This document shows positions 16,913 through 64,000 of a stretch of DNA of 64,000 bases, piece by piece. The position numbers and the translations under genes were made by a program. Under the pieces are notes generated by a model that was given only the letters and a program-made list of their open reading frames with translations, was not told where the DNA came from and made no database searches. The stretch is from positions 1-64,000 of the forward strand of contig JAFQBW010000004.1 of the NCBI GenBank assembly GCA_017399555.1, read 5' to 3'. Position 1 is the first letter of the stretch; each line of letters opens with the position of its first letter. The stretch is from Methanocorpusculum sp. Lineage in GTDB: Archaea; Halobacteriota; Methanomicrobia; Methanomicrobiales; Methanocorpusculaceae.

Positions 16913-17581
16913 TCAGATTGTTCCAAGTACCCGCAGGATTTCTTCGCGGAATCCCGGTTCGTCTGCAACGTCGTACCATTCTCCGTTGTAATCCACGCCT
17001 TTGAGGTATCCGTTTTTCAGTTCTTCTGCGGCGGCTGTTATCTGTTCTTCCGTTACGCTGATTCCATTTCTTTCTGCGATGTTTTTGATGTATGCTTCTA
17101 CATCGGAGATGATTGTGTGGGGAAGCATCGGCGTTGAGGGCTGATTTGGTTTCGGTTTGATTTCTGTCTGTTCATCTTCTGATGTGTCCGGAATTACCAC
17201 ATCAGGTTTTGTCATCTGGGAGATGATGTCATTATGGATTGCCGGGTCAAGGTTTATCACGCGTGTGACTTCGTTCTGGAATTCGACAAGGTCGTCAACC
17301 CAGACTCCACCCTCGGTGCGTACTGCATCTTTGAGATATCCGCTGTCGAGTTCATCTGCGTATTTTTGAATTTCTTCTTTTGTTAAACCGAGGGAGTATT
17401 TTTCATCTAACAGTGAAAGGTAGTGTTCCACACTGGAAAATGTTGGGGCAGGAGGTGCGTCTGGTGTGTCCGGGATTACCGGCGGCAAGTGCGTATTGGG
17501 AGTTTCCGGCTCCTGAATGCATCCCGCGGAAAGGACGACTGCAAGAAGCAGGAGGATTAGGATAATGCGGGACTTTTTCAT
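16913..17581 (-). CDS. Lipoprotein with repeated helical module (family B), 222 aa
   Basis: The signal peptide KKSRIILILLLLAVV leads to the lipobox LSAGC, so the protein is probably lipid-anchored on the outer face of the membrane. After a proline-rich spacer there are two related modules, at about 58-118 (SLGLTKEEIQKYADELDSGY, then LKDAVRTEGG) and about 168-222 (ISVTEEQITAAAEELKNGYL, then KG). The same two-module plan occurs in the 252-aa paralogue at 18647-19405. Function is unknown and I know no named domain for it. It forms an operon with the downstream 130-aa gene. Confidence 0.8.
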   Translation of the reverse strand: MKKSRIILILLLLAVVLSAGCIQEPETPNTHLPPVIPDTPDAPPAPTFSSVEHYLSLLDEKYSLGLTKEEIQKYADELDSGYLKDAVRTEGGVWVDDLVEFQNEVTRVINLDPAIHNDIISQMTKPDVVIPDTSEDEQTEIKPKPNQPSTPMLPHTIISDVEAYIKNIAERNGISVTEEQITAAAEELKNGYLKGVDYNGEWYDVADEPGFREEILRVLGTI

Positions 17582-17617
17582 ATGGGATAATCGCTGTGAT
17601 GGGTATTAAGTATATTG

Positions 17618-17637
17618 GGCAAAAAATAGCAGGGTGG
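17618..17637 (-). terminator. Recurrent 20-nt 3' element, copy 2
   Basis: GGCAAAAAATAGCAGGGTGG lies 12 bp beyond the stop of the 137-aa gene and just before the promoter of the 222-aa lipoprotein gene. It is identical to copies 1 and 4. Confidence 0.55.
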
Positions 17638-17649
17638 TGATTCTCTGAC

Positions 17650-18063
17650 TCAGACGAAAGTCTTTATCAGACAGTACAGCTTTCCGTTTTCGGATAAGAC
17701 ATGGTGTTCTTCCAGATTACTTGCGAGGTACATGTCGTCATAGCCGAAGGAGTACCAGATTTCGTCTGCCCGTTCAGGACTTATGTAATGGTCTGAATCC
17801 AGGAGCTTTGGGTTGGTGGTAACGCCGATTTCATATCCTGGCTCTCCATATATGAGTGCGGCAAGTTCTGGATATTCTTTGTGTATTTCTTCGGTGAGAA
17901 CTACGGTTGTGTATGGCTCATCTTTATTGGTGATGTCTTCGTATTCCCAGATGATAAAACCAATCATGGATGGAAAATACGATTCTTCCGGCTCCTGAAT
18001 GCATCCTGCGGAAAGGACGACTGCAAGAAGCAGGAGGATTAGGATAATGCGGGACTTTTTCAT
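17650..18063 (-). CDS. Lipoprotein (family C), 137 aa
   Basis: This protein has the same 26-residue N-terminus, ending in lipobox SAGC and IQEPE, as the 222-aa lipoprotein. A globular domain of about 105 residues follows, with IGFIIWEYEDITNKDEPYTT, LTEEIHKEYPELAALIYGEP and the C-terminal HHVLSENGKLYCLIKTFV. It is a paralogue of the 145-aa protein at 18146-18583, which keeps the domain but has a plain membrane anchor instead of a lipobox. Location is predicted to be outside the membrane. No function is assignable. Confidence 0.8.
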   Translation of the reverse strand: MKKSRIILILLLLAVVLSAGCIQEPEESYFPSMIGFIIWEYEDITNKDEPYTTVVLTEEIHKEYPELAALIYGEPGYEIGVTTNPKLLDSDHYISPERADEIWYSFGYDDMYLASNLEEHHVLSENGKLYCLIKTFV

Positions 18064-18099
18064 ATGGGATAATCGCTGTGATGGGTATTAAAGATATTG

Positions 18100-18119
18100 A
18101 GCAAAAAATAGCAGGGTGG
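18100..18119 (-). terminator. Recurrent 20-nt 3' element, copy 3
   Basis: AGCAAAAAATAGCAGGGTGG differs from copies 1, 2 and 4 by one base. It lies between the 145-aa gene stop and the 137-aa gene promoter. Confidence 0.55.
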
Positions 18120-18145
18120 AAAATAGTTGATTTTGATTATCTGAA

Positions 18146-18583
18146 TTAGACAGCTGTCTCTATTAGACAGTAGAGCTTACCGTTTTCAGATAAGACATGG
18201 CGTTCATCTGCACTACTTGGATTATAGCTGAAGTACACAGTATCATATCCGAAGGCGTTCCATAGTTCATAAGCTCTTTCTTCTGTTATATATTGGTCAG
18301 GATATAATATGAGATTAAGCGGGCTGCTTGTAACTCCAATTTCATAACCAGGCTTTCCATATATGAGGGTGGCAAGTTCAGGATATTCCTTATGAATTTC
18401 TTCTGTGAGGATTACAGTTGTATATGGCTCATCCTGATTTAGTACATCATCGTATTCCCACATGACAAAGCCTACCATGGTTGGTGGAGCTGTCAGGGAT
18501 AAATAAAGGAGCACTCCACCACCGCATAGCAGTACGAGGACTGCAACCATGCAGATGATTAATGCAATGCGTGATTTTTTCAT
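18146..18583 (-). CDS. Membrane-anchored hypothetical protein (family C), 145 aa
   Basis: The N-terminus (ALIICMVAVLVLLCGGGVLL) is a single membrane anchor without a lipobox. The outer domain mirrors the 137-aa lipoprotein: VGFVMWEYDDVLNQDEPYTT, LTEEIHKEYPELATLIYGKP, and the end ERHVLSENGKLYCLIETAV. I use ATG 18583 (MKKSRIALI), which is preceded by GGAGATTG. An in-frame TTG nine bases upstream is less likely. It forms its own unit between copies of the recurrent 3' element. Confidence 0.8.
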   Translation of the reverse strand: MKKSRIALIICMVAVLVLLCGGGVLLYLSLTAPPTMVGFVMWEYDDVLNQDEPYTTVILTEEIHKEYPELATLIYGKPGYEIGVTSSPLNLILYPDQYITEERAYELWNAFGYDTVYFSYNPSSADERHVLSENGKLYCLIETAV

Positions 18584-18619
18584 ATGTGACAATCTCCGTG
18601 AATTGTCTTAAAGATATTG

Positions 18620-18639
18620 GGCAAAAAATAGCAGGGTGG
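18620..18639 (-). terminator. Recurrent 20-nt 3' element, copy 4
   Basis: GGCAAAAAATAGCAGGGTGG lies 7 bp after the stop of the 252-aa lipoprotein gene and upstream of the 145-aa gene. It is identical to copies 1 and 2. Confidence 0.55.
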
Positions 18640-18646
18640 GCGGGGA

Positions 18647-19405
18647 TTAATAGACGATTGGATGCTCTAACATCCAGATATATTCTTCAAATGTTTCCTG
18701 ACTAAGGTTTAGTATCTTTGCGATTTCGGCTAAGTATGCAATCATATCTTCGACAAAGAAATAGTCAAGGTGTTCCATGAGACCATCAGTACGTTCGGCA
18801 TCTTTGAGATATCCTGTTTTTATCCCATCCGCAATTTTTAATATTTCTTCTTCGGTTAATCCAAGAGAATAGACTCTATTCATATTTGCCACGTCTCGTT
18901 CTACAACAACGGCGCCAGGTTTTAATGGAACTCTCGGTGCTTCAGGACCTTCAAAAAAATTGTCTGGCGGGGCAATTAGGTCTTCCACAATAGTCTCATG
19001 CAATTCTTGATTAATGTTCAGCATCCGGCTTACTTCAGCTTGGAATGCAACAATGTCATCGATTCTGACCTCTGTTTCACTTCGTTTTGCGTCTTTGAGA
19101 TAAACGGTATCCAGTTCTTCTGCATAAGATGAAATCTCTTCTTCAGTTAATCCAAGATTATAATTTACATTTAAATCTGACAGGAATGTCTCTACACTTG
19201 GAATAATTTTGTAATATGTTGGCGGCGCATCCGGGTCAAGCTGTTCTAAATCGAAGTAATACAGAGAATCTTCATCAATTGGGGGGCCTGACATCGGTGG
19301 AAGTGGGGTGTTAGTTTGATTTACTGGCTCTGGGTTTTGTATGCATCCTGCTGAAAGAACAACCGTGAGGAGCAGGATGGTCAGTGTGATAATTGGTTTT
19401 TTCAT
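18647..19405 (-). CDS. Lipoprotein with repeated helical module (family B), 252 aa
   Basis: A signal peptide ending in lipobox LSAGC and a Pro/Thr-rich spacer are followed by two modules. Module 1 (about 75-135) has NLGLTEEEISSYAEELDTVY then LKDAKRSE, ending in an FQAEVSRMLNINQELHE helix. Module 2 (about 175-245) has SLGLTEEEILKIADGIKTGY then LKDAERTD. It is a diverged paralogue of the 222-aa lipoprotein. A good ribosome-binding site, AAGGAGAT, precedes ATG 19405. Function is unknown; external, lipid-anchored location is predicted. Confidence 0.8.
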   Translation of the reverse strand: MKKPIITLTILLLTVVLSAGCIQNPEPVNQTNTPLPPMSGPPIDEDSLYYFDLEQLDPDAPPTYYKIIPSVETFLSDLNVNYNLGLTEEEISSYAEELDTVYLKDAKRSETEVRIDDIVAFQAEVSRMLNINQELHETIVEDLIAPPDNFFEGPEAPRVPLKPGAVVVERDVANMNRVYSLGLTEEEILKIADGIKTGYLKDAERTDGLMEHLDYFFVEDMIAYLAEIAKILNLSQETFEEYIWMLEHPIVY

Positions 19406-19440
19406 ATGTGATAATCTCCTTGATGTGTATTAAGTCTATT

Positions 19441-19463
19441 TGGTAAAAAAATAGCAGGGTTGG
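19441..19463 (-). terminator. Recurrent 3' element, copy 5 (diverged)
   Basis: TGGTAAAAAAATAGCAGGGTTGG is the most diverged copy. It lies directly beside the stop codon of the 132-aa gene at 19464 and ahead of the 252-aa gene promoter. Confidence 0.5.
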
Positions 19464-19862
19464 TTAAGATACATAGAGACCGACTTCGTATATTACTCCG
19501 TTGTGTTCTATGTAACGATTTCTATCCCCGGTAACATATCCATATGATTCTATGATTGCATATCCTGTTTCTCTGTTGATAAGTCCTGTAATGTCGAAGA
19601 GTTCCGAGAGGGGTGATGTATCAAGATACACACTTTCTGGGATGTCTTTGAGTACTGGATACTTTTCGTAGTCTTCTTCGGTGAGTTTGATAATTACTGC
19701 ATTTTCCGGCACAGTATCTGCCTGCAGGAATACGAGTTCTTCACCACTTCCTCCCCAACCAAGGGAGATGACGATAATTCCACCAATGATAAGGATGATG
19801 AGGAAAATCCCGATTCCGGAAAGGGCAATAAGTCCTGTTCGTTCGATTTTCTTTTGGTCCAT
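19464..19862 (-). CDS. Membrane-anchored hypothetical protein (family A), 132 aa
   Basis: One N-terminal membrane helix (about 13-35) is followed by an outer domain with VPENAVIIKLTEEDYEKYPV, RETGYAIIESYGYVTGDRN and the end RYIEHNGVIYEVGLYVS. It is a paralogue of the 130-aa protein at 16511-16903 (extended near-identity in these motifs). It is the most upstream member of the cluster in transcription direction, 47 bp from the secreted protease gene. Function is unknown. Confidence 0.8.
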   Translation of the reverse strand: MDQKKIERTGLIALSGIGIFLIILIIGGIIVISLGWGGSGEELVFLQADTVPENAVIIKLTEEDYEKYPVLKDIPESVYLDTSPLSELFDITGLINRETGYAIIESYGYVTGDRNRYIEHNGVIYEVGLYVS

Positions 19863-19909: not shown

Positions 19910-21268
19910 TTAGGTATGTTGGCTAGCTGTTACCTTGTAGTTTCGAATCATCTTTGCATTATCGTGCGTTGCGTCACCAAGGTATGATGGTGAAGCAGTT
20001 GAAGAAAATTCTAACAAATTGAATAATGAACCATAATATTCACCAATCATGACTGTATTAGATATCAGACTTCCAGAGAACCATTTAGCATATCCCTGTT
20101 CATGTCTTCCGTTAAAACAATGACCAACTTCATGGATGATACAATATTTTCTTGCGTGGTCTCCACCATTGTACGCACCAATACTTGCATCAGCAACCAT
20201 TTGAGACCACGCATATCTATCACCAAAGTTATATGCTTGTCCTTGACTAGTTCCAGTTGATCTGTCGTGACCTCCAAGATAGAGACAAATATCTGCATTA
20301 ACTGAATCTAAGTACGATCTAGGATAGATGCTCATAAGTGTAGATAATGGATTTGTCAGTACTGTATCATGCGTACTCATTTCTATTCTCTTAGATGAAT
20401 CATAAGAGATTACATTAAGAAAGACCCCAACATCTTCACGTCCAAATGAAGTTGCGCTATTTGCTGCGGCAATATATGATTGAGCTTTGGTAACCCAATT
20501 GTCTTCAAGGGTAAAGAATGCATTGTCAGTAACTACCAGAACATCTACAGTAACAAGAGAATTTGTTGCTCTTGATGTATCATCCAGATTCATTAACGAT
20601 TCACTCGCCAATATCTCAGATACAGTTGGCTCCAGCATTCCACAGATATCAACAGGTTCACTTGGTTGGAGAATGTCATATTCCGAATAAACAATATGCA
20701 GTGGGTTCTGACTGATTCTGGTCTCGACATTTGTATCAAGTGAAGTTATTGTCAGATATTCTCCTGGGTATGATATACTTCCAATTAACAGGTTTTTATC
20801 ATTTACTGTGAATATAACTTCTGAGTTTTCAATTCCTTCAACAGTTCCTAAGTAGGAATCAATACCGTCATCAATGTTTTCTGGCATACGTTCAAGATTT
20901 ACGGTGTATTCTTCACCATAAAGTGTGATGTCGAACTCCACAGTGTCAGAACGTATTGGGATTGGGTTGTTGAAGGTTACCAATGAGTAGATTTCCTCAT
21001 CATGCCTAATCTCATTGGATGCTTTCTTTGCATTTGAGGATTCGATGATGAACTCAGGAATATTCAGAGAGCTCTGTGTGTATGTTGACAGAGCCACTTT
21101 TTCTGGACATGCTTTACCATCGTACATAATTGTTTTCTCTGGAATGGTGAAGATTGGTACATTCGCGTTTTCCAGAGAGTCGGCACTAACGGGCTGAATA
21201 CATATGACTGCTGTTAACAGCAGGATGCATACAGCGAAGAATTTTAATTTTGATGATTCTCTTTTCAT
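19910..21268 (-). CDS. Secreted metzincin-like zinc metalloprotease
   Basis: This 452-residue protein has a Sec signal peptide (KLKFFAVCILLLTAVICIQ, likely cleaved after VSA). A beta-rich propeptide-like part spans about 45-230 and a catalytic domain about 235-400. The zinc site is CIIHEVGHCFNGRHEQG, an exact HExxHxxxxxH metzincin motif. A downstream SNTVMIGEYYGSL could hold the Met-turn methionine. It is predicted to be secreted and to cut extracellular proteins. An AGGAG ribosome-binding site lies just before the ATG. It is divergent from a small secreted protein and a membrane winged-helix regulator, with a shared operator. Confidence 0.87.
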   Translation of the reverse strand: MKRESSKLKFFAVCILLLTAVICIQPVSADSLENANVPIFTIPEKTIMYDGKACPEKVALSTYTQSSLNIPEFIIESSNAKKASNEIRHDEEIYSLVTFNNPIPIRSDTVEFDITLYGEEYTVNLERMPENIDDGIDSYLGTVEGIENSEVIFTVNDKNLLIGSISYPGEYLTITSLDTNVETRISQNPLHIVYSEYDILQPSEPVDICGMLEPTVSEILASESLMNLDDTSRATNSLVTVDVLVVTDNAFFTLEDNWVTKAQSYIAAANSATSFGREDVGVFLNVISYDSSKRIEMSTHDTVLTNPLSTLMSIYPRSYLDSVNADICLYLGGHDRSTGTSQGQAYNFGDRYAWSQMVADASIGAYNGGDHARKYCIIHEVGHCFNGRHEQGYAKWFSGSLISNTVMIGEYYGSLFNLLEFSSTASPSYLGDATHDNAKMIRNYKVTASQHT

Positions 21269-21356
21269 TTTTTACTCCTGTACCTGTCTTTTGGACTGGT
21301 ACTTGTGGAAATCTGATGAATCAAATGTTCCACAATTTGGAATATCTCGTCGTTTG

Positions 21357-21439
21357 TTATAAACACATTGAGCACTTTTTTACAGGGTGGTGAGATTTTT
21401 GCAGGAGGGTGTAAAAAAGTGCTCAAAATATTTTATAAT
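21357..21439. promoter_or_regulatory. Symmetric divergent promoter with 16-bp perfect inverted repeat
   Basis: TGAGCACTTTTTTACA (21369-21384) and its exact reverse complement (21410-21425) are separated by 25 bp. The left arm sits 5 bp from a minus-strand TATA box (TTTATAA, 21357-21363). The right arm sits about 5 bp from a plus-strand TATA box (TTTTATAAT, 21431-21439). Each arm therefore covers the BRE position of one promoter. A protein bound to both arms could block or recruit TFB at both promoters. The candidate binder is the winged-helix protein at 21914-22684. Confidence 0.75.
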
Positions 21440-21462
21440 AGGAAGTTACAGATAATTGGAAG

Positions 21463-21924
21463 ATGGACTGGAAAAAGATAATTCTCATATGCGCGGTTCT
21501 TGGAATCTCATGTTTCATAACATCAGTGGGTGCTACAGGTATTGTTGATGATTATGATAATGATACTTGGGTTAATACATGGTTCACTTCTCATGGGTAT
21601 TTACCCAAAGCAGCACCAGTCTATGGAACTATTAGTAACGGTGGAGTGGTGGAGCATCCTTATGTAGTTCCATCAGGTAAAACAAGAATTGATGTATCTC
21701 TTGAATGGAATAGAGCAAACACTCAGAATGAACTAACTATGAAGATAGTAACACCAACTTTAGACACATATGGGCCTTTTTCAGATATTCAGGATGGGAG
21801 AGTTGATGGTAAAATATCTATCTCTACTATGAATAATATCAGGGCAGGGGTTTGGAATGTTATTGTTCTTGGTACTTCTGTTAGTGGAACACAGAGCTAT
21901 ACGTTAGTCTTCAATGCAATTTAA
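21463..21924 (+). CDS. Small secreted protein with PPC-like beta domain
   Basis: This 153-residue protein has a signal peptide (KIILICAVLGISCFITSVGA). The mature part is beta-rich: GTISNGGVVEHPYVVPSGKT, RIDVSLEWNRANTQNELTMK, then a C-terminal GVWNVIVLGTSVSGTQSYTL. This pattern resembles pre-peptidase C-terminal (PPC)/proprotein-type jelly-roll domains that occur with secreted proteases. The resemblance is by eye and not certain. It overlaps the next gene by 11 bp and is divergent from the metzincin, so it may assist, anchor or inhibit that enzyme. Confidence 0.65.
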   Translation: MDWKKIILICAVLGISCFITSVGATGIVDDYDNDTWVNTWFTSHGYLPKAAPVYGTISNGGVVEHPYVVPSGKTRIDVSLEWNRANTQNELTMKIVTPTLDTYGPFSDIQDGRVDGKISISTMNNIRAGVWNVIVLGTSVSGTQSYTLVFNAI

Positions 21925-22684
21925 GACAATCTCTCTCCTTCTTCTTTTTGTAATTTCATGTAGTACCTTCTGTATTTCATGTTCTGCCGAAGAAACTGAA
22001 TTGACCTTCTTCACTCCTGAATATGATATAGAGCCAGATTATAATGACGGGGTTGTCATTGTGGATGGGCTTTTACATCTGATGTATTGGGAGAACACTC
22101 TCGCATTTTATCTTCTTTCTCCTCTTGACCTTTTCAAAGATACATCATTGGGGAATTTTACTACTAATCATCTCTACCCCCTCCTCATGATTCTCTTAAG
22201 CAGTCTTGCAGGAGTTCTTCTCTTCTCCCGAAAAAATCCAGACCGCCTCTCCCCCACTGCGGCAAAAGTTCTTGCCTTCCTCAAAGAGCATCCGGTGTCT
22301 GCTGAGCCTGCGATAATTCGCGGGGTTGGAAAATCCCGCGGGGCGGTATCATATCAGCTTCATCGTCTGCTCTTTGACGGGAAAATTTACTCCGCGGAGA
22401 TTTCCGGAAAAACATGTTACAGTATGTCTCCAATTCTTATTGACTCACCAGAGACTTCTGTCTATTTCATGCGAAACAACAAACAGCAGGCAGAGATTAT
22501 CTCATATCTCTGTTCTCATCCGTGGGCAACACGAAAAGAAATCGCCGATGCAGTTTCTTTACCTGTGGATGGTGTACGGTATCATCTGAAAAATATTGAT
22601 ATTGGTATTCTGCAGAAAGGAATCAGAGAGGATGCTGAGATTTATGCGGTAGAAGATTGGGTAAAGCAGTTGTGGGAGATATAA
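21914..22684 (+). CDS. Membrane-anchored transcriptional regulator with two winged-helix domains
   Basis: The N-terminus is a signal-like hydrophobic segment (ISLLLLFVISCSTFCISCSA). A short outer loop rich in acidic and aromatic residues follows, then a second membrane helix (about 90-106). The cytoplasmic part has two winged-helix units, about 117-165 (TAAKVLAFLKEHPVSAEPAI then IRGVGKSRGAVSYQLHRL) and about 190-250 (AEIISYLCSHPWATRKEIAD then AVSLPVDGVRYHLKNI). This layout resembles archaeal membrane-bound HTH regulators that sense the cell exterior. It likely controls the adjacent divergent promoter. DNA binding is inferred. Confidence 0.75.
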   Translation: MQFKTISLLLLFVISCSTFCISCSAEETELTFFTPEYDIEPDYNDGVVIVDGLLHLMYWENTLAFYLLSPLDLFKDTSLGNFTTNHLYPLLMILLSSLAGVLLFSRKNPDRLSPTAAKVLAFLKEHPVSAEPAIIRGVGKSRGAVSYQLHRLLFDGKIYSAEISGKTCYSMSPILIDSPETSVYFMRNNKQQAEIISYLCSHPWATRKEIADAVSLPVDGVRYHLKNIDIGILQKGIREDAEIYAVEDWVKQLWEI

Positions 22685-22694
22685 AATAGACTAA

Positions 22695-22993
22695 CCGCTA
22701 ATCCACGCTAATCTCAGCCAATCGCATTCCGACTCCCTCGCTTACTTCGCCGCGACTTATCGTCGCGTCTCGTATTGCTCTCGCAAACGCTCGGCGGAAT
22801 GCTTGACTCGCGCTTCGGCGCTCGCATTTTCAGATTAAGGAGTTATTTGCTGAATTATAATGCTGTCAGGCGAGCGCCGAAGCGCGAGTCCAGCGTTCCG
22901 CTGAGCGGTGGCGATTAGCCGCGAATCCGACCAACGGGAGGATGAGAGCGAAGGTACGGAACGCGATTGGCTGAGATTAGCGTGGATTGGCGG
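22695..22993. repeat. 299-bp intergenic inverted repeat (type D)
   Basis: Outer arms of 31 nt (22695-22725 and 22963-22993) match as inverted repeats with one mismatch. They begin CCGCTAATCCACGC on the left. Inner segments are also complementary: GACTCGCGCTTCGGCGCTCGC on the left pairs with GCGAGCGCCGAAGCGCGAGTC on the right (each about 20 nt). The element fills the gap between two convergent genes, and no coding signal is seen in it. Confidence 0.75.
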
Positions 22994-63744: not shown

Positions 63745-63810
63745 AGATGTTCTACTATTCGCGGTCCTAAGAGATAAAGGAGGCGGAGTGTGTGAGTTTT
63801 TGCTCAATAT

Positions 63811-63820
63811 TTTTATATAG
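63811..63820 (+). promoter_or_regulatory. TATA box of the truncated membrane protein gene
   Basis: TTTTATATAG lies 21-30 nt before ATG 63841. The absence of a ribosome-binding site suggests a leaderless transcript. Confidence 0.5.
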
Positions 63821-63840: not shown

Positions 63841-64000
63841 ATGAGCGATGATGTGAAGGCAAAAGACGTCCTCATCGTTTTGGGGATAGTTGCCGCAGTA
63901 ATCCTTGTACTGACTGCGGCTGTCTGGCTGTTTACACCAAGCAGTTACGGAACAGTCTGTTTCATGCCGACAGGGGAACTGGAAGAAGGAGTGGAGATTC
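63841..64000 (+). CDS. Membrane protein, N-terminal part (cut by window end)
   Basis: The first 53 residues are visible: MSDDVKAKDVLIVLGIVAAV with a membrane helix (about 10-32), then PSSYGTVCFMPTGELEEGVE. A short charged cytoplasmic start, one helix and an outer domain are predicted. The rest lies beyond the window, so no family can be named. Confidence 0.6.
   Translation, partial: MSDDVKAKDVLIVLGIVAAVILVLTAAVWLFTPSSYGTVCFMPTGELEEGVEI

Follow-up and report, generated by a model that had tools for sequence, protein, structure and literature searches.

We found that a perfect inverted repeat between two divergent genes, in a 64,000-nucleotide stretch of Methanocorpusculum DNA (the window), is best read as two copies of one promoter element, each serving its own gene. 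Judging from the sequence comparisons below, it is quite probable that the double winged-helix protein encoded beside the repeat reads both copies, most likely as an activator and in answer to a signal at the cell surface.

The inverted repeat and its two promoters

A first-pass annotation of the window had described arms of 16 bp set 25 bp apart. The repeat is real, and its perfect arms are one base longer, with 17 bp each (TTGAGCACTTTTTTACA at 21368–21384 and TGTAAAAAAGTGCTCAA at 21410–21426) and 25 bp between them. The repeat at 21368–21426 exceeds chance: the 64 kb contain just one other perfect inverted repeat with arms of at least 13 bp and a gap of at most 80 bp, the seeds with 13-bp arms number 14 (all from these two loci) against a mean of 0.25 in randomised windows, and an arm of at least 12 bp arose in 6 of 2000 randomisations of the local 400 bp. 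The parts of the locus are as follows.

19464..19862, − strand: small membrane protein whose gene follows that of the metzincin at a distance of 47 bp and has no element of its own
19910..21268, − strand: secreted metzincin-like protease with HEVGHCFNGRH (PF13582, 23.0 bits against a cut-off of 22.4)
21356..21363, − strand: TATA box TTTATAAC of the metzincin promoter, from the sequence
21367..21384, − strand: left arm, TGTAAAAAAG-TGCTCAAT, the upstream element of the metzincin promoter (perfect inverted match to the right arm; exact fit to the family pattern TGCTCAATNNNTTTATA)
21410..21427, + strand: right arm, upstream element of the secreted protein/regulator operon, TGTAAAAAAG-TGCTCAAA (inverted repeat)
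21432..21439, + strand: TATA box TTTATAAT of the secreted protein/regulator operon, from the sequence
21463..21924, + strand: small secreted protein, 153 aa, overlapping the next gene by 11 bp
21914..22684, + strand: membrane-anchored regulator, 256 aa (Pfam HTH_20/HTH_24, hydropathy, AlphaFold secondary structure)

The arms had been placed about 5 bp from two divergent TATA boxes, and we measured 4 bp on the (−) strand and 5 bp on the (+) strand. They had also been placed on the TFB recognition element (BRE), where they do not lie: if the BRE is the hexamer adjoining the TATA box, each arm extends over no more than its outer 1–2 bp and sits just upstream of it. Transcription would be expected to start near 21336 for the metzincin and near 21460 for the operon. 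The metzincin TATA box starts 95 bp before the ATG, ahead of which is an AGGAG ribosome site. That of the operon starts 31 bp 5′ of its ATG, so the operon mRNA would be nearly leaderless, and in many other members of the element family described below 23–28 bp separate the TATA end from the ATG. The small membrane protein gene at 19464..19862 is probably co-transcribed with the metzincin.

Since transcription on either side should begin beyond the TATA box, the repeat should be absent from both divergent transcripts. This bears on the idea that the repeat encodes an RNA hairpin, a terminator or an attenuator: long perfect arms could fold, but a repeat outside both transcripts, together with the existence of family members with a single arm, leaves such a role extremely improbable.

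The protease carries the HEXXHXXG/NXXH zinc motif of M12-like metzincins, and its PF13582 score is just over the cut-off. Homologues occupy the same slot at three related loci (L041, L043 and L046). The homologue at L041 (6702–8078) is split over two open frames (352 and 95 aa) and may be broken or misassembled. The close relatives L040 and L044 have the same operator and regulator as L041 and L043, and there the divergent gene encodes an unrelated secreted protein (MKQIMK...) in place of the metzincin. A PPC beta-sandwich domain was recognised in 3 of 10 members of the small secreted-protein family (best E 3.3e-5); the same search gave no match in the window's own 153-aa protein.

The arms belong to a genus-wide family of promoter elements

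Genome-wide work on the window's genome consisted of pattern searches. With up to two mismatches allowed, the full 17-bp arm has no further copy in this genome of 2.02 Mb, and the arm of this class (class 1) occurs there only at the metzincin and secreted protein/regulator operon promoters, a point that counts against the model proposed below. A mobile-element inverted repeat was rejected, the full arm being found only at 21368–21426. The first-pass annotation had proposed a search of the genome for arm-like sites beside TATA boxes. With a shorter family pattern, four of the six sites with at most one mismatch lie within 1.5 kb of a winged-helix gene (P ~1e-6).

The family element consists of a variable stretch of about 11 bp followed by TGCTCAA(T) and TTTATA, and stands directly ahead of the BRE/TATA that it serves. 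In 25 Methanocorpusculum genomes, TGCTCAATNNNTTTATA with one mismatch allowed gave 83 matches, against 7 for the reversed control. Most of the matches adjoin genes for paralogous, membrane-anchored proteins with two winged helices. They are mostly located before genes for secreted proteins, lipoproteins and regulators, with the TATA box often ending about 25 bp before the ATG. Of the 24 exact sites in the loci compared, 19 have a winged-helix gene within 1.5 kb, a linkage that is partly circular because the seed motif came from such loci; most TGCTCAATNNNTTTATA sites fall outside the seed loci. The genes behind the elements encode secreted or membrane proteins in 30 of 38 cases, compared with 26 of 59 genes of the window. 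One further family element in the window was identified by pattern match.

63801..63817, + strand: TGCTCAATATTTTTATA, a family element ahead of the gene for a small membrane protein (ATG at 63841)

Orthologous and paralogous loci retain both the secreted protein/regulator pair and the inverted repeat, with differing arm sequences. The arms are AATACATTGAGCATAGATTCCAATTC in the M. parvum group, ATTGAGCATTTCATCCAATGC at L009/L045 and ATTGAGCATTTCATCCCATGC at L010/L046, and in all of these the TATA-proximal part is TGCTCAAT; GCATTGGAATCTATGCTCAAT is the element of another cluster. Between L045 and L046 the arms differ by one substitution, which is present in both arms, and the spacers are unrelated. 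Sites of the form AAAACCTAATT(T/C)G-(T/C)GCTCAATANATTTTTATA that no convincing gene follows were also seen in several genomes, at L133, L134, L152, L154, L080 and L084, the last two about 665 bp from a regulator gene. These gene-less sites are possibly small-RNA promoters or promoters of missed genes. A search of literature mostly from outside the subscription journals found no earlier account of such a modular operator family, an absence that is not proof.

The window also contains an array of related lipoprotein and small membrane-protein genes (16913–19457) with class-2 elements (CTGCTATTTTTTGCYCAATAT).

19430..19457 (approximate), − strand: degenerate class-2 element (CTGCTATTTTTTTACCAAATAG) before lipoprotein gene 18647–19405
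18608..18634, − strand: class-2 element (CTGCTATTTTTTGCCCAATATCTTTAA) before gene 18146–18583
18088..18114, − strand: class-2 element before lipoprotein gene 17650–18063
17606..17632, − strand: class-2 element before lipoprotein gene 16913–17581

With three exact and one degenerate class-2 elements in the lipoprotein array, two element classes lie side by side in this DNA. The nearest regulator adjoining a class-2 element is on contig C58 of the same genome.

The two arms are independent sites

Perfect symmetry and identical arms, as seen in the window, are what a single symmetric operator bridged by one dimer or tetramer would show. Across the family, however, the core-to-core distance in divergent pairs takes values of 23, 34, 35, 36, 45, 56 and 76 bp, a range without helical periodicity, and promoters with a single arm are common. 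Further, at the syntenic locus of a relative (G006) the left arm belongs to the other class while the right arm is kept. We consider a bridged operator very improbable. Since the core-to-core distance varies, the arm-to-TATA spacing is nearly constant across the family and single-arm cases exist, the arms are better understood as independent sites upstream of the BRE. The suggestion that one factor could switch both genes survives in part: the comparative data agree that the divergent promoters carry the same element, but not that they share one symmetric operator.

The variable half is cluster specific and tracks the linked regulator

We compared the 13 bp upstream of TGCTCAAT among 93 sites in 43 clusters. 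Identity was 0.75 for sites of one cluster and 0.37 for sites from different clusters of one genome. Averaged by cluster, identity of the variable half was 0.72, a value reached in 0 of 2000 permutations (mean 0.53, maximum 0.64), and the specificity also holds without the clade richest in repeated sites. Within-cluster identity peaks at about −11 to +17 and drops on both flanks. The downstream flank from +18 to +30 retains some excess identity (0.57 against 0.33), and the shared variable halves could partly reflect recent promoter duplication. Over 21 dissimilar versions the variable half is strong only at T −10 and A −6, and TGCTCAAT is near-constant across paralogous clusters.

For 21 regulators, whose operators were assigned by hand and in some cases from promoters read by eye, similarity of the variable half correlates with that of the first winged helix (wH1; r 0.58) and of the helix of the second (wH2; 0.57), and less with that of the ectodomain (0.33). 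The ectodomain correlation falls to 0.05 or 0.02 when wH1 or wH2, respectively, is held constant. A finer assignment, in which wH1 would contact the constant half and wH2 the variable half, was built on the change of SRG to SRS/SRN alongside TGGTCAAT, TGTCCAAT or TGCCCAAT; it was dropped because of a C49-type exception and because the correlation test lent it no support. A 10-bp direct repeat inside the element was likewise rejected as weak (identity 0.41, against about 0.2–0.3 at other offsets).

These results bear on whether an unlinked factor reads the conserved TGCTCAAT half, with the local winged-helix proteins as bystanders. The near-constancy of TGCTCAAT over paralogous clusters is what such a factor would produce, and certain elements have no linked regulator, just as certain regulator genes have no recognised element. 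Yet the variable half is cluster specific and tracks the DNA-binding domains of the linked regulator, and only one TFB gene was found in the genome, which makes an alternative TFB unlikely; an alternative TFB reading TGCTCAAT was rejected on this ground. We regard an unlinked reader as unlikely overall, and favour the local protein.

A membrane-anchored double winged-helix protein is the candidate reader

The 21914–22684 protein has an N-terminal hydrophobic segment, a short ectodomain, a transmembrane segment at about residues 85–106, and two winged helices (wH1 at 114–170, wH2 at 190–246). Hydrophobic spans of 19 residues begin at residues 2–8 and 85–88. It scores 27.2 bits for HTH_20 (cut-off 27) and 25.8 for HTH_24 (cut-off 21.9). 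For PF24266 (HVO_0163-type) it reaches 16.7 bits against a gathering threshold of 31, a cut-off exceeded by its paralogues L059 (33.9) and L057 (47.3). The regulator has eight paralogues in its own genome and many across the genus, and no relatives were found in the viral contigs searched. Solved structures gave no informative sequence match, and Foldseek with a low-confidence model of the regulator returned generic winged-helix matches.

At the syntenic locus of G006, a 31-bp stretch containing the right arm is conserved at 93.5% identity, and wH1 of the regulator is identical to that of the window at 55 of 58 residues, while the ectodomain matches at 18 of 81 (22%). This locus lacks both the secreted gene and the metzincin, and its left arm is a class-2 element serving an apparent lipoprotein remnant. 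The G006 regulator gene has lost its second winged helix and may be decaying. That the arm and wH1 persist in this relative, which has a different ectodomain and neither the secreted partner nor the metzincin at the locus, marks the local winged-helix protein as the best candidate reader. The first-pass annotation had named this protein as its candidate, and the cluster-specific variable half and its co-divergence with the DNA-binding domains point the same way.

We therefore propose the following working model. One element would serve the metzincin promoter and the other the secreted protein/regulator operon, each immediately 5′ of its BRE/TATA, and the regulator would act jointly on the operon that encodes it and on the divergent metzincin. 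The variable half (TGTAAAAAAG in the window) would specify which regulator is addressed, with the TGCTCAA(T) half common to the family. The secreted and regulator genes overlap, and this pair recurs in several clusters, with the secreted gene absent in G006. Topology and operon structure suggest that the ectodomain senses something outside the cell, perhaps with the co-encoded secreted protein.

The regulator would most likely act as an activator, helping TFB/TBP at a weak promoter. Activation is the favoured sign, by roughly two to one, because activating archaeal regulators usually bind upstream of the BRE/TATA (PMC5937170, PMC5512572), a tendency that counts against repression. Alternatively, the same elements and the same local regulator could act in repression, with the bound protein blocking TFB/TBP until a signal from outside releases it from the DNA. 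The constant half reaches into the BRE at its upstream edge, and CsmR binds upstream of the BRE with targets that rise in the deletion mutant (PMC13286277), so position upstream of the BRE does not decide the sign. Repression is a real though clearly less likely possibility than activation.

Relation to known systems

Membrane-bound one-component regulators (TTR) are widespread and reported to be enriched in Methanomicrobia, according to the passages on prevalence and domain make-up of a survey (PMC10269533), which come without operator sequences. Like them, the 21914–22684 protein is a single chain with one or more transmembrane regions as well as a DNA-binding domain. ArnR and ArnR1 of Sulfolobus acidocaldarius are archaeal membrane-bound one-component winged-helix regulators too, and act on surface-structure genes via inverted-repeat boxes upstream of the BRE/TATA (PMC6396743; PMC13286277). 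In ArnR, however, the HTH is N-terminal and the membrane segments C-terminal, whereas in the window protein the transmembrane segment precedes both winged helices; and the ArnR box is a palindrome, TCGAC-N5-GTCGA, at one promoter, whereas the window element TGTAAAAAAGTGCTCAA is non-palindromic and bipartite.

The position of the site is closer to that of two other regulators. EarA of Methanococcus maripaludis has its site immediately upstream of a weak BRE, and its proposed role is to aid TFB recruitment at a surface-structure operon (PMC5512572), and TFB-RF1 of Pyrococcus furiosus activates from just upstream of a weak BRE via TFB recruitment (PMC5937170). The window arms end 4–5 bp before TTTATA, a comparable placement. 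EarA differs in using four 6-bp sites at the fla promoter, where each promoter of the window locus has a single bipartite element and the regulator is membrane-anchored and belongs to a paralogous family. The TFB-RF1 site is palindromic (TCTG-N5-CAGA), and no membrane anchor is noted in the parts of that account drawn on here (PMC5937170). In outline the arrangement also resembles ToxR/ToxS of Vibrio, a membrane-anchored winged-helix regulator with a small extracytoplasmic partner (PMC7496328, PMC7265457). The domain order is opposite, however, the window protein has two winged-helix domains, no sequence relationship is expected, and partnership with the secreted protein is suggested for the window by the operon alone.

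Taken more widely, we see about even chances that Methanocorpusculum carries multiplied, insulated surface-signalled switches, each with its own membrane-anchored double winged-helix regulator and two-part operator. Duplication would give rise to new switches, as would the exchange of ectodomains, secreted partners and cargo genes about a reader–operator pair that stays conserved, with the constant half of the operator marking the family and the variable half serving as the address. To our knowledge, operators are known for few of the membrane-bound regulators of archaea. If the wider reading is true, the genus offers a natural series of some twenty operator versions, each distinct and each with a linked regulator, with which recognition rules, insulation of paralogues and the sign of regulation would be directly testable in vitro. 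The element would then also be a sequence handle on the surface proteins that a host-associated methanogen switches together.

A neighbouring intergenic element

The intergenic DNA downstream of the regulator gene holds, at 22700–22988, an element of some 290 bp that is bounded by terminal inverted repeats (GCGATTGGCTGAGATTAGCGTGGATT). Contigs C43, C58 and C60 of this genome carry similar ends in pairs, a pattern like that of a miniature transposable element, and the inner palindrome of the element (22805–22890) is the window's other perfect inverted repeat. The regulator gene at L042 (8542–9093) encodes a nearly identical wH1 but another ectodomain and no wH2, and its end runs into sequence like the end of this element.
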